This document shows positions 200 through 52,286 of a stretch of DNA of 64,000 bases, one piece after another. Where the stretch lies: assembly GCF_000376445.1 (NCBI RefSeq), contig NZ_AQXI01000004.1, positions 186,001 to 250,000 of the forward strand, read 5' to 3'. Every line of letters starts with the position of its first letter. Position 1 is the first letter of the stretch. The notes beneath the pieces were generated by a model. It saw only the letters and a program-made list of their open reading frames with translations. It was not told the DNA's origin and searched no databases. The stretch comes from Haladaptatus paucihalophilus DX253 (GTDB lineage Archaea; Halobacteriota; Halobacteria; Halobacteriales; Haladaptataceae). Both the position numbers and the translations under genes were made by a program.

Positions 200-1570
200 G
201 CCCTGTGGACAGTCAGCCAGGCAGAAACAGGGTGCCCCCCTGACGTGAAACACCCCGTCTTTCAAGTGAAATTCAACAGCACAGCCAACCAGCACCAGCC
301 ACCCTGACAGTCCACTACTCTCACACCGGATTTCCGGAGTAACTCAGCTATACACTACTGGGGGACGCTCTCTCCTTCCGCAATCACTCTCGCCCCCCCA
401 TAGACAGTCCCATAGACCCATACCAATGACAGTCCAGGGGCTGATTCACAGAGGACAGTCTGTTGGCTGCAACCAGTCACGTCACAACTCGTCCCAACAC
501 ACTGGACAGTCCTCCGGTCGTCACCAGATATGACCATCACCCGCTGGTGCCGGGATGACAGTCCCACGGGTTGTAACACTACCAATGTCTATTTTGCTGG
601 TCGGGAATGGACAGTCAAGAGTCCATCTGTCCCCCCTCTGGGTTTGTTGCGCTCATCTCTCGTGGACAGTCTCGTAGCGTGGATCAATACCGGTCACTGG
701 TACGTTCATTGAAACCTCGGTGTCTCTCCTAGTGGCACCCCCACCATAGCACCCGTGTTGGCATCCAGATCTGCGTGAAGTCAGTGGGCACCCCAACCAA
801 TGCATCCACTGGCACCCCACTCTCGTCGCTCATCGGATTTTGTCGTCCTGTCCCGGTAGAGGGACTGTCAGAACTCGTCGCGCTTGGTGACTGTCCTGTA
901 CTGTCTCACAGCCTCTGTGTCTCGCACTTCCTCACTCGGTGTTTGGGGTGGATCGTTTCTCGAGGTCATCTCATCCTGGTGGCTGTCGGTACTCCGGCTA
1001 GCTCCTCATCGCACTGCTCATCCCTTGTTTTCAGCCACCTTTCTCGCTCCCTCTCCACTGTCCGTGGCTGTCTCGTTCTCATTGACTGTCCACTGATCTC
1101 AGTCTAATCACCTCTCTACCTCGTGTTGTCGGTATGCCCTTCGGGAAGCTAGATCTGTCTCTATTTCTGTCTTCTATCCGCATTGTCGGACTGTCCCATC
1201 TCACGGTATTCTCTATTCTATGGCTGCTGTTTCTACATCATGGGACTGTCCCTCTGTGCTCGCACTGGCCTCTCTCGTTGTCTCGTCGTGGTGGACTGTC
1301 GTCCAGTCCCTACACACCAATCTGCAGAAATATTGTTTTTGGGGGGACTGTCCACACACCACTTTTCATCTGTTCGCCATGCCTCATTCGGGCGCGGATT
1401 TCCATCCACTTCTCAGAAGTTTGACTATCAGCATCTTCGTGTATTTCGTGACTGTCGGCCCTGTCTTTCGGCCTCATTGTCTCAGAAAATTTAGATTCAT
1501 TCTGGGTGCCCACTCTATCTGTCTCGCATAGTGGGGGTGCCCTCCTCACTACGCTCATCTGGGGTGCCCA
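200..1570. repeat. Two-armed interspersed heptamer array (GACAGTC left arm, GACTGTC right arm)
   Basis: The heptamer GACAGTC occurs nine times in one orientation, starting at 208, 306, 403, 428, 454, 505, 557, 610 and 665. Its reverse complement GACTGTC then occurs eight times, starting at 863, 889, 1084, 1189, 1244, 1294, 1346 and 1450. No copy of the wrong orientation was seen in either arm. Spacings cluster at 25-26 and 50-55 bp, with longer steps near 97 and 104. A second motif, GGGCACCC / GGGTGCCC, lies near the centre (734, 786, 811) and at the outer ends (230, 1504, 1535, 1562). The sequence between motifs is not repeated. The left arm is rich in A+C and the right arm in T+G on the plus strand, so the arms look like diverged inverted copies. 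The short open frames here show no recognisable protein. Function unknown; a protein-binding array is one possibility. Confidence 0.8.
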
Positions 1571-1845
1571 TTTGTCGTTACTCAGTTCGTTATCAGTCTC
1601 TCTTCAGTCGTGGGTTTCGTTGGTCGCACTTCGGTTGCTTTTCCAGTGTGTTTCTGCAGGGATGTTGCCGTCGGTTTTCTCTCTTTTTTCTTATACGTTG
1701 TTTCTCTCGGTGGTTGGTTTGTCTGCTGTTGTTTGGGGTGTGTTTCAGCTATATGTGTCGGGGTGTTCTGAAAAGGCCTTATTACAGGCGTAGAAATTAA
1801 GGCCTTGGAGTGAATACAGCCTATAGAAACACAGTATGGAAAATG
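1571..1845. other. Non-coding stretch between the array and the IS-like unit
   Basis: This stretch is T-rich on the plus strand and has no open frame with recognisable protein character. A near-duplicate word, aaggcctt, occurs twice (1774 and 1799 region). I see nothing else that can be interpreted. Confidence 0.4.
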
Positions 1846-1890
1846 GGCTCTGTTGAAACCCTATTAGTCAGATATCTTTCCTGCTGAAAC
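1846..1890 (+). repeat. IS end sequence shared with 19088
   Basis: About 43 bp starting GGCTCTGTTGAAACCCTATT and ending near TCTTTCCTGCTG is repeated with a few differences at 19088-19130. The shared part is longer than the terminal inverted repeat, so this is a genuine IS end and not a chance match. Confidence 0.6.
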
Positions 1891-2023
1891 AGCTGCTACG
1901 GAGACGTGCTTACCTCACACGGATGAAGAGTGGCCTCAAGTTCGTCGAGTCGGTCAACATACTCTTTTCGTGCAGGCTGAGTCAAAAAGAATATTTTAGC
2001 GTATCTGCACTCTACTCGTAAGG

Positions 2024-2569
2024 ATGAGAGGCCCTGAGGAAGATGAAGAAATCGAACGAGCGATCCAGTATTTAGTCCATTCGTTCGAAATGTCAGGGAA
2101 TAATCCAAAACCGGTGATACTCCATAGTACACGAGTCGGGATGAATCTTTACGACAGAGGATACGAGAAGCCCATCGTCATCTCCGGATTTCTCCACGAT
2201 CTAATAGAGGATACGGATGTGACTGCTGCTGAGATTCGCTCGGAGTTCGGAGACGACGTTGGAAATATTGTGGCAGCCACTAGTTTCGACGAGAGTATAG
2301 ACGACTATCTTGAACAACACTACGATATCTATGAAAGATGCTTCGAACTTGGACGACCTGCTGTCGTCGTGAAAGCTGTGGATATCCTCGATAACAGTGA
2401 TTACTACCATTTGGGGGGGTCAGAGGAACTACGAAAGAACCTGATCGAGAAAATGGACTACTTCATCGGGCATTCTGAACCGTATATTGGAGACGAAGAC
2501 GTCTATCAGGAACTCAAGAACAAGTTCCCCATCGTGAAGGAGCGATTGGAAATAAAACCCGACAGTTGA
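2024..2569 (+). CDS. HD-domain phosphohydrolase, SpoT/Mesh1-like
   Basis: This 181-residue protein has the HD signature of the RelA/SpoT/Mesh1 branch: an early histidine (HSTRVG, near residue 34) followed by LHDLIEDTDVT (near residues 57-68), the HDxxEDT form typical of (p)ppGpp or NADPH pyrophosphohydrolases. A later KAVDILDNSDYY segment (near residue 117) would supply the further metal-binding Asp in a KxxDxxxN context. There is no synthetase or TGS domain, so by family it would act as a stand-alone hydrolase in the cytoplasm; the substrate is not proven. A TATA-like AATATTTTAG lies about 27 nt upstream of the ATG, consistent with a leaderless transcript. It sits inside the inverted repeats of the IS-like unit, as a passenger or as an older resident. 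Confidence 0.7.
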   Translation: MRGPEEDEEIERAIQYLVHSFEMSGNNPKPVILHSTRVGMNLYDRGYEKPIVISGFLHDLIEDTDVTAAEIRSEFGDDVGNIVAATSFDESIDDYLEQHYDIYERCFELGRPAVVVKAVDILDNSDYYHLGGSEELRKNLIEKMDYFIGHSEPYIGDEDVYQELKNKFPIVKERLEIKPDS

Positions 2570-2643
2570 TTTATGATTTGTTTGCACCGTGTTCCGGCTG
2601 CTATCGAGTCAGAAGTGGCACGTTGTTGTTCTACATCTAACGT

Positions 2644-3465
2644 TTAGAGTGTCTTGTCGATATTGTGAGTGAGGCAGCCGACGACGAGTTCACGGAACTG
2701 CTTCCACCAATGTCGTGAGCGGACGAATGCACCATATTTGCGTTTGAGACGGGAGTTTACCGTCTCGTTCTGACTGCGTTGGCCGTAGAGGTCGGTGTCC
2801 AGTCGAGCATTCCATGCCTTGTGGAGCGACAAAAATTCGCGGTACTTGATGAGAGGACGAACACCATCTTCACGGGCTAACAAGCGAATCTTCCGGTCGT
2901 CGTATCCTTTGTCGCCAAGGAGAATCGCTACCTCTCCGATATTTCGCTTGATGAGCGACGGTGCGATCTTCGAGTCGTGTTTTCTGGTCGTCGTTACGTG
3001 CAGATCAAGAATCGCATTCGCTCTCGTGTCCACGAGTAGTGTGACTTTCAACTGCTGAATCGTCAACTTTGTTCGCTTCGTGTAGTGCTTCGAGGCGTGA
3101 CTACGGTCGAATCCGGAGGCGTCGATCCCGACGACACCGTTAGTCGGGAGGAGCGTGATCGAGAGGTTAAGAAGGACACGCCAGACAGCCATATCGAGTC
3201 GATCGAACGCCTTACACAACGTCGAAGGTGACGGGAGTTCCTCAAGATCGATGGCGCTCCGAATGCGAGGCATCTCGATCAGCTCGTCAAGCAGGGTTCG
3301 GTACGTTGTATTCTTCCGCACCTTGAGACAGAGCAGAACGATGTGCTGGTGGAGTGTGTACCGTCGTTTCGAGAACTTTGAGGAGTAGCAAGCGACAGCT
3401 CGTCGAGCCAAGTTATACGCTTGCTCAACGAACCGGAGCAACCGCGACTTCGGGAGGGCCTGCAT
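2644..3465 (-). CDS. IS5-family transposase
   Basis: A 273-residue DDE transposase. The three acidic residues are visible as VGIDASGF (first Asp, near residue 115), ILLGDKGYDDRKI (second Asp, near residue 183) and RSQNETVNSRLKRKYG (Glu, near residue 233) with the usual following R and K. The length and the SxxETxxSxxKRxYG-type C-terminus fit the haloarchaeal IS5 group. The frame is intact, so the enzyme may still be functional. It reads leftward from the right-hand inverted repeat at 3501-3517. Confidence 0.88.
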   Translation of the reverse strand: MQALPKSRLLRFVEQAYNLARRAVACYSSKFSKRRYTLHQHIVLLCLKVRKNTTYRTLLDELIEMPRIRSAIDLEELPSPSTLCKAFDRLDMAVWRVLLNLSITLLPTNGVVGIDASGFDRSHASKHYTKRTKLTIQQLKVTLLVDTRANAILDLHVTTTRKHDSKIAPSLIKRNIGEVAILLGDKGYDDRKIRLLAREDGVRPLIKYREFLSLHKAWNARLDTDLYGQRSQNETVNSRLKRKYGAFVRSRHWWKQFRELVVGCLTHNIDKTL

Positions 3466-3641
3466 TTAGTCAAACTACTGGATGAACCTGTAACTCCCTG
3501 AGGATTTCAACAGAGCCGAATGAGACTATTAGAGTTTAGACTATAATAGTTTCACCACTAACTTCGAAGCACATACATACCCGGTGTATCTACAACTAAA
3601 GCGGTATCTGTTGGTGGAAGCAGTGGATATGATTTCTCTGG

Positions 3642-30954: not shown

Positions 30955-31344
30955 GGGTTCCGACTACACGAAGTGTGCTAATAAGAACTCCCTCTGATTC
31001 GATATCACGACGGTTGTCCACTCTAACCGTAACGGTCAGCAGATCGGGTCAGGTAAGTGGGCAATTCGACATAGAAGCATCTGATCAGCACGTCTTCGAC
31101 TCCGGTTGATTTGCTGAAAAACGAGATTTCCACGACGCTACAGTTCTTATCGATAGTTACAACTAGCGGACTTTCAGTTTTCAAACTGGATTATCGGACA
31201 GTTCGACGATACGGAACAAACCCTGATAGGATGTTTCACACGTCCAAATTCCAGATTGACACCTTAAAGTGTGGAGTCACTGGATCCTCGCTCGACAGGA
31301 AATAGAAGCGCTATTGCTGGAAATTCATTTACACCATAGTTCCG

Positions 31345-31465
31345 AAGTAAATCACCCACACACTACCGTGAGACCTCCTCCTCCCACAATCACCTCACTC
31401 TTACAGACAGTCCCATTGCTGATTCACAGAAGACAGTCCGGTGGTCTCAACCAGTCCACTTCACA
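31345..31465 (+). repeat. Second, diverged copy of part of the heptamer array
   Basis: This segment aligns with 341-500 of the first array. Shared words include CAATCAC, AGACAGTCCCAT, CTGATTCACAGA, CAACCAGTC and CACAACT in the same order. GACAGTC occurs at 31406 and 31432, 26 bp apart. Relative to the first array the copy lacks one ~25-bp unit between the homologues of 403 and 454. It ends directly against a broken SRAP gene. Confidence 0.75.
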
Positions 31466-31724
31466 ACTGACGACCGAACCCAATGACGTGATGAAACCAA
31501 TCCATAATCGGATGCCCGTGGTGCTATCGAGTGAGGACAAAGATCGGTGGCTTTCGGGTGATCCAGAAGAACGTGAAGCGTTGTGTCAACCGTATTCTCG
31601 TGATGATTTGGCTGCCTACGAGATCTCGACGCGAGTCAACAACCCAGTCATGACGATCCGTCGGTCATTGATCCAGAGGATCACGAACAATCGGGACTTG
31701 GTGAGTTCTCCTCGGAGTGAATAG
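31466..31724 (+). pseudogene. C-terminal fragment of an SRAP (HMCES/YedK-like) gene
   Basis: The frame reads TTEPNDVMKPIHNRMPVVLS and then YEISTRVNNP, which are C-terminal hallmarks of SOS-response-associated peptidase proteins; the conserved His of IHNRMPVVL is present. The N-terminal part with the catalytic Cys is missing. After NNP the family sequence continues only in another frame (DDPSVIDPEDHEQSGLGEF), so there is also a frameshift near 31650. The break at the 5' side coincides with the end of the array copy. Confidence 0.8.
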
Positions 31725-51542: not shown

Positions 51543-52286
51543 ATGCCCTCTCGACGACACTTCCTCCATGGGGTTGGGGGAACCGCTCTCCTTGGTACGG
51601 CTGCCGGCAGTGCTGCCTATCTCGATCTCGGATTCGTTCGAACGAAAGCTGGCGGAGGTGGCACCCATACAATTGATCTTGATTCACCGAACAGAGAGGT
51701 CTTCATTCCTCCGGAGGATTTCGATGCATACGCAACCCAAATGCATGAGCAGTATGGTGATGCCACTATCCCGTGGACCAACCCCGAGTCACTCGCTGGT
51801 GAGTTTGTTGGTGCATACATGCGGCAGGAGACAATCGTGCCAACAGAGCAGTATGCGATGCAGGACGCCACCATTCTCGCTCATCGCCTTGGTAGCCGTC
51901 GCTACAAGATACGGCTGTGGAGTGCTGGTCGGTTACTGGGCAAAAAATATGACGTCGATCCATGGGGACTCTATCAGGAAGAAACCGCCTTTACATGGCT
52001 TAAGCAGGAAATTTCGGTAGATTACGATGGGCAGCTGTCGACTGATACAACCCAGTCAAGTAGTGGTCGTGCTTCGGTTGCTGGAGGGGCAGTGACAGTT
52101 CCCGACGGCTCGTATGAGATGGGACTCAGCCCTGGAAATGAAGCCAGTTACCGATCGCGCTGGGAAGGGTTTGCGACAACCGACGTCCCACTCATTGGTG
52201 CATGTGAAGTGCAATTTGAGACCGGTACGAAGCCACGATTCGATTGGTCGTTATCGTATGGGGTTGGAATTCGTACGCCGTTCTAA
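51543..52286 (+). CDS. Tat-exported protein of unknown function
   Basis: A 247-residue protein. The N-terminal PSRRHFLHGVGGTALLGTAA is a twin-arginine signal; no lipobox Cys follows, so the protein may be cleaved and secreted or remain anchored by the signal. The mature part has no domain I can name and is rich in Tyr, Trp and Ser. It follows the M14 peptidase gene on the same strand after 165 bp. After it, 52287-52463 contains no gene. Confidence 0.6.
   Translation: MPSRRHFLHGVGGTALLGTAAGSAAYLDLGFVRTKAGGGGTHTIDLDSPNREVFIPPEDFDAYATQMHEQYGDATIPWTNPESLAGEFVGAYMRQETIVPTEQYAMQDATILAHRLGSRRYKIRLWSAGRLLGKKYDVDPWGLYQEETAFTWLKQEISVDYDGQLSTDTTQSSSGRASVAGGAVTVPDGSYEMGLSPGNEASYRSRWEGFATTDVPLIGACEVQFETGTKPRFDWSLSYGVGIRTPF

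Follow-up and report, generated by a model that had tools for sequence, protein, structure and literature searches.

What purpose is served by a dense cluster of short, oriented DNA words in a haloarchaeal genome, and what reads them? The 64-kb stretch analysed here (the window) is part of contig C4 of a 4.3-Mb Haladaptatus genome and contains 25 copies of the heptamer GACAGTC (motif A) against 13.9 expected; 17 of these fall within 1.25 kb. An earlier note on the sequence had reported these 17 exact copies and listed possible roles for them, a partition site and a replication origin included. A site for a transfer system, the role to which the neighbouring genes point, was absent from that list.

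Two heptamers in alternating blocks

All 17 heptamers were recovered, nine forward and then eight reverse, and in the window array their orientation is indeed free of exceptions (Table 1). The claimed spacing groups of 25–26 and 50–55 bp were found too, along with one at ~97–105 bp. Across 51 arrays, same-orientation spacings group at 26, 49–53, 78 and 95–97 bp. The best periods are 24.7 bp for motif A and 24.5 bp for motif B, in place of the 26/52-bp lattice first suggested. Degenerate copies of GACAGTC were looked for in the empty lattice slots and none were found. The proposal that the sites share one face of the DNA fails because phasing at 10.5 bp is weak in these 51 arrays (R = 0.13 for motif A, 0.22 for motif B).

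The single-motif picture was incomplete, as it overlooked a second heptamer, GGCACCC (motif B), which fills the ends and the centre of the array and lies on the same ~25-bp lattice. Read outward from F0, the gene that adjoins most arrays of the genus, the blocks follow the order B> (one to four copies), A> (three to eight), <B (two to seven) and <A (two to nine), often with B> again, and few F0-linked loci depart from it. Anatomically, this alternation of A and B blocks is the main finding. In reverse complement, the window array reads B>3 A>8 <B3 <A8 B>1 <A1, which follows that order apart from one outlying A, its outer motif B block being the counterpart of the block that adjoins F0 in intact loci. 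Among 454 motifs in the 51 arrays, which are partly related by descent, three violate the expected polarity.

Table 1. Features of the array and its surroundings in the window
Feature	Position	Strand	Details
Motif A arm 1	208..671	+	9 exact GACAGTC; starts 208, 306, 403, 428, 454, 505, 557, 610, 665; spacings 98, 97, 25, 26, 51, 52, 53, 55
Lone motif B, far array end	230..236	-	
Central motif B block	734..817	+	GGCACCC at 734-740, 787-793, 811-817
Motif A arm 2	863..1456	-	8 exact GACAGTC; starts 863, 889, 1084, 1189, 1244, 1294, 1346, 1450; spacings 26, 195, 105, 55, 50, 52, 104
Outer motif B block	1504..1568	-	GGGTGCC at 1504-1510, 1535-1541, 1562-1568
Two AAGGCCTT palindromes, 26 bp apart	1773-1780, 1799-1806		Same site upstream of F0 in L038
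F0 remnant	1836..1844	+	ATG and two codons, aligned to the F0 start of L038
HD-domain gene	2024-2569		Inside IS-like unit
IS5-like transposase gene	2644-3465	-	Inside IS-like unit
Fragment of a second array, same family	31331..31485	+	2 GACAGTC; homologous to 323-413 and 428-504

Measured against the criterion used for CRISPR (identical repeats of at least 21 bp, one direction, unique spacers), the array is rejected as such: its words are 7 bp long, their polarity inverts and the inserts are homologous between copies. The description of a polar, non-CRISPR array resembling a set of protein sites stands. The inserts had also been called unique and, at ~44 bp, potential carriers of information, an idea left unsupported because they are homologous to those of other arrays at 70–83% identity. 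Mirrored base skew between the arms is a property of the window copy but not of the second array of the same genome, whose left arm is A+G-rich and whose right arm is not mirrored.

A family of arrays and the orphan copy in the window

The expectation that haloarchaeal relatives carry the array was borne out. At least 39 arrays are spread over all nine Haladaptatus genomes searched, the tally per genome being a lower bound; more arrays were detected than these 39, and others occur in further genera. Every one of the nine Haladaptatus genomes has pairs of GACAGTC 25 or 26 bp apart, most of them more than one pair, and such pairs are rare outside the genus; the loci around such pairs hold convergent arrays nearly everywhere. 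Several arrays may reside on one replicon, and chromosomal copies are also present. Two chromosomal loci (L049 and L050, at ~1.648 Mb and 2.200 Mb of contig C1 of genome G006) share 100% identity for 8.3 kb or more, reflecting either a recent large duplication or a feature of the assembly. A search of the literature on haloarchaea for this motif returned incidental matches only.

In a BLAST comparison with plasmids, the array itself matched only Haladaptatus plasmids (69–83% identity), almost always in stretches without an annotated gene. On this ground the reading as a decayed gene was rejected; that as an insertion sequence (IS) was rejected because the array is fixed in place beside F0. Pairwise alignments of the window array with three other loci suggest selective retention of the words: motif A is fully conserved at 14 of 17 sites in L058 (binomial p 1.7e-6), 14 of 16 in L047 (p 9e-8) and 11 of 11 in L053 (p 1e-6), against 23–29% of background heptamers in the same alignments, with p values that are approximate given that heptamers overlap and loci are related. 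In these alignments, the A motifs are conserved far above the surrounding sequence.

Outside Haladaptatus, a profile search with F0 led to loci in other families, where the best-scoring F0 genes mostly come with an A/B array. The same A/B order beside F0 is seen in Haloterrigena and relatives (L114, L126, L130), Actinarchaeum and relatives (L116, L117, L118/L137), Natrinema zhouii (L139) and other haloarchaeal genera, with L115 and L120 among the array loci. More distant F0/F1 pairs (L119, L121, L123, L124, L125, L127, L128, L131, L132, L136, L138) have no GACAGTC array. Two variants, noticed post hoc, are suggestive of an order that is kept while the letters drift: L115 has GGCATCC in place of motif B with the block order unchanged, and L134 of Halococcus dombrowskii has blocks of GGACCCC and of GGATGTC arranged likewise, more sparsely. 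Separately, a palindromic GAACTCGAGTTC-like word (CTCGAG) is enriched upstream of F0 in Natrialbaceae-type arrays (L114, L126, L130, L139), and CTCGAG clusters without GACAGTC occur at L125 and L129.

Aligned with the F0-bearing locus L038, the window array is an orphan copy in which only the first three codons of F0 are left. Homology runs through the two AAGGCCTT palindromes and the F0 start codon as far as 1844/1845; right after the remnant, at 1846, comes an IS-like end (GGCTCTGTTGAAA), and the remainder of F0 was not found in the 64-kb window. The motifs of the window copy are kept despite this loss. The pair of AAGGCCTT palindromes ahead of the remnant is likely the operator/promoter region of F0; F0 may bind this operator, perhaps exclusively, so that its adjacency to the array does not imply binding to motif A or B.

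Two further observations concern this junction. A 48-bp stretch containing the palindromes (1747–1794) is 83–92% conserved in plasmids from Natrinema, Halobaculum, Natribaculum and Halomicrobium, with no annotated F0 beside it in the records examined. The IS-like unit spans 1846–3513, with GGCTCTGTTGAAA at 1846 and an inverted copy ending near 3513, and a similar operator adjoins an HD-domain gene on Haloferax mediterranei pHME505.

Genes linked to the array

A conserved neighbour gene, for which the earlier note had suggested looking, does exist. Clustering of ORFs around 30 loci placed F0 at 17 of them, a second family (F1) at 11 and a gene for a thermonuclease with an SNase domain at nine; in the genus-wide tally, F0 lies beside the array at 27 of 39 loci and is missing from 12. 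F0 is a protein of ~158 aa with a winged helix and a coiled coil (L009 3332–3808), and F1 is a VirD4/TraG-type coupling protein of ~900–1400 aa (L009 617–3325). The two genes are convergent, F1 following F0, and the array is upstream of F0. This linkage was also seen starting from the proteins: among ten F0 loci with enough flank, found by genus-wide F0/F1 searches and not selected by motif, nine have a convergent array in the same place (L068–L076) and one has a decayed array (L077), while no array was found at F1 homologues or fragments lacking F0 (L079–L083). A further search gave 19 loci, almost all already in the set. Many arrays have the thermonuclease gene next to them, on the flank opposite F0 (L009 5378–6199, L066 18812–19525); the L009 protein has a lipoprotein-like N-terminus, and the copy of L140 (38809–39552) lies elsewhere on the plasmid.

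F1 stands at the end of an operon whose other products include a VirB4-like ATPase, a polytopic protein and a small pilin-like protein with several TM segments. The assignments of type IV secretion system (T4SS) components other than VirD4, including T4SS_pilin and VirB4, rely on weak Pfam matches. The operon thus combines a VirD4-type coupling protein with a VirB4-like ATPase and ends by F0 and the array. In the window's own genome, a T4SS-like operon is present on contig C5, adjoining the second array. F1 itself matches TrwB_AAD_bind and TraG-D_C, with FtsK_SpoIIIE matching only at E 0.09; its sole match in phage records, a weak one, is to Bacillus phage G. Its C-terminal region (residues ~480–830 in L009) is highly conserved between subtypes, belongs to no Pfam family and carries an invariant PD...ExE, suggesting a lead towards PD-(D/E)XK nucleases, whose signature it resembles. 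A structural model of this region (pLDDT 39.6 from one sequence, 79.8 with 29 sequences) includes a helical segment that may be a winged helix; because Foldseek found no match to it in the PDB at E <= 0.001, the nuclease idea draws on the sequence signature only.

Do these neighbours fit a plasmid-maintenance site? F0 could coat the array and hold or segregate the plasmid independently of ParA, at a partition/centromere-like or other maintenance site. Its winged helix and coiled coil are built like a centromere binder, and convergent multi-site arrays beside a gene for a DNA-binding protein occur on many replicons. In archaeal AspA/ParB/ParA and bacterial TubR-type centromeres, a winged-helix protein is likewise encoded beside multi-site DNA; the neighbour of F0, however, is a VirD4-like ATPase rather than a partition NTPase. 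On the complete 80-kb circular plasmid NZ_CP111039, ParA, its partner and orc1/cdc6 lie together at 96–2587 (orc1/cdc6 at 1379–2587), ~30–50 kb from the array, which extends over ~52.5–54 kb beyond F0 (51630–52148). The array is therefore neither the orc1 origin of that replicon nor a ParA centromere with its ParA gene adjacent, and both proposals of the earlier note are disfavoured in these forms. ParA is ~10 kb away on NZ_CP071310, and no partition ATPase gene was found beside the other arrays with annotation examined. Since several arrays can also share a replicon, others are chromosomal and the close association is with the coupling protein of a T4SS, we consider a maintenance role rather unlikely.

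Much of this bears on an origin with iterons as well, with F0 as initiator or accessory. The repeats are iteron-like and the F0 profile matches Pfam Replic_Relax weakly (E 2.9e-5, below the cut-off), but the separate orc1/cdc6 locus and the multiple copies per replicon, chromosomal ones included, make it highly improbable.

The position of the array directly upstream of F0, with an extra AAGGCCTT palindrome pair at the F0 start, would suit a regulatory region, one governing F0 and the transfer operon or keeping the element silent through a nucleoprotein filament. However, the array cannot be the promoter region of the T4SS operon because that operon and F0 are convergent; more than 12 sites of alternating polarity over 1.2 kb would be excessive for an operator, and copies without F0 retain exact motifs. 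A regulatory role is accordingly judged unlikely. Least credible of all is a non-autonomous mobile element whose transposase binds subterminal inverted motif arrays: the arrays are dispersed, multi-copy and built of inverted arms, yet copies are fixed in place beside F0/F1, and the identity of L049 and L050 extends over at least 8.3 kb, beyond the array.

A candidate recognition site for a transfer system

The reading that we prefer, with about even confidence, is that the array is the cis recognition site, akin to an oriT or clt, of a haloarchaeal conjugation-type T4SS, favoured because the linked genes resemble a DNA-transfer machine. The winged-helix/coiled-coil protein F0 would load onto heptamer blocks, and the C-terminal part of F1 and/or another factor would supply a second DNA-binding activity on the heptamers. 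Two such activities, acting on blocks of opposite polarity along the ~25-bp lattice, could build a large nucleoprotein complex through which the plasmid is offered to the motor of the T4SS; the point of loading or processing would lie at the centre, where the polarities converge. An array that lacks F0, as in the window, would be an orphan site, either a relic or one usable in trans. Protein binding, the assignment of motifs to proteins, DNA processing and transfer are all steps that we infer. Weighing against this reading are the 12 of 39 arrays without F0, the more distant F0/F1 pairs without GACAGTC arrays, the MOB-suite calls given below and the weak Pfam basis of the T4SS assignments other than VirD4.

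Several known systems offer parallels. FtsK KOPS and SpoIIIE SRS are short, non-palindromic, polar octamers that converge on a centre, KOPS doing so over chromosome arms. The array shares these properties of its words, but is packed on a 25-bp lattice within ~1 kb and has a second motif of opposite polarity. In Streptomyces, the 8-bp repeats of clt/TRS are read by the hexameric FtsK-like TraB, through the winged-helix domain of this translocase, in relaxase-free plasmid transfer (PMC4170104). Here, too, short repeated words lie on plasmids, and a motor reading short polar words would fit the clt/TraB pattern. In contrast to clt, two different heptamers are involved, in four to five blocks whose polarity alternates across 1.2 kb, together with a VirD4/VirB4-type system and a separate winged-helix protein, and the domain matches of F1 are not those of an FtsK/TraB-type translocase.

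At staphylococcal oriT sites of the pWBG749 type, the smpO gene adjoins the site, and orphan oriT mimics occur on elements without transfer genes (PMC8136818). An adjoining small DNA-binding gene, subtypes with drifted motifs and copies without transfer genes are common to both, and arrays lacking F0 would fit the orphan pattern. SmpO is a ribbon-helix-helix protein, whereas F0 has a winged helix, and the pWBG749-type system includes a relaxase gene, whereas relaxases of families PF03432 and PF08751 were absent from the nine Haladaptatus genomes in searches with positive controls. MOB-suite calls most array plasmids non-mobilizable.

VirB4/VirD4 systems of archaea have long been known, with no relaxase recognised in them (PMC3158045, PMC9905601), and archaeal conjugative plasmids are likewise reported to be devoid of recognisable ones (PMC9905601; PMC3158045). 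A T4SS without a relaxase is possibly devoted to protein export (PMC3158045). If so here, the array would serve an unrelated role of a hitch-hiking plasmid backbone; given the DNA-binding-domain match of the VirD4-type F1 (TrwB_AAD_bind) and the linkage of F0, array and F1 in several families, we regard this as very unlikely. A bolder form of the transfer-site reading, possible though doubtful, would make the array, with its two words of alternating polarity, the first cis site to be identified for archaeal relaxase-independent conjugation. A VirD4-type motor, whose fused C-terminal domain has the nuclease-like PD...ExE signature, would recognise and process it together with F0, in place of a relaxosome.

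No defined transfer origin for archaeal VirB4/VirD4 systems was found in the literature searched. With a conserved, recognisable site linked to the genes of a coupling protein and of a small DNA-binding protein, this gap becomes testable, and a sequence marker is available for potentially mobile haloarchaeal plasmids, most of them non-mobilizable according to MOB-suite. If the preferred reading is true, the array would be the missing site at which archaeal plasmids are handed over from cell to cell.
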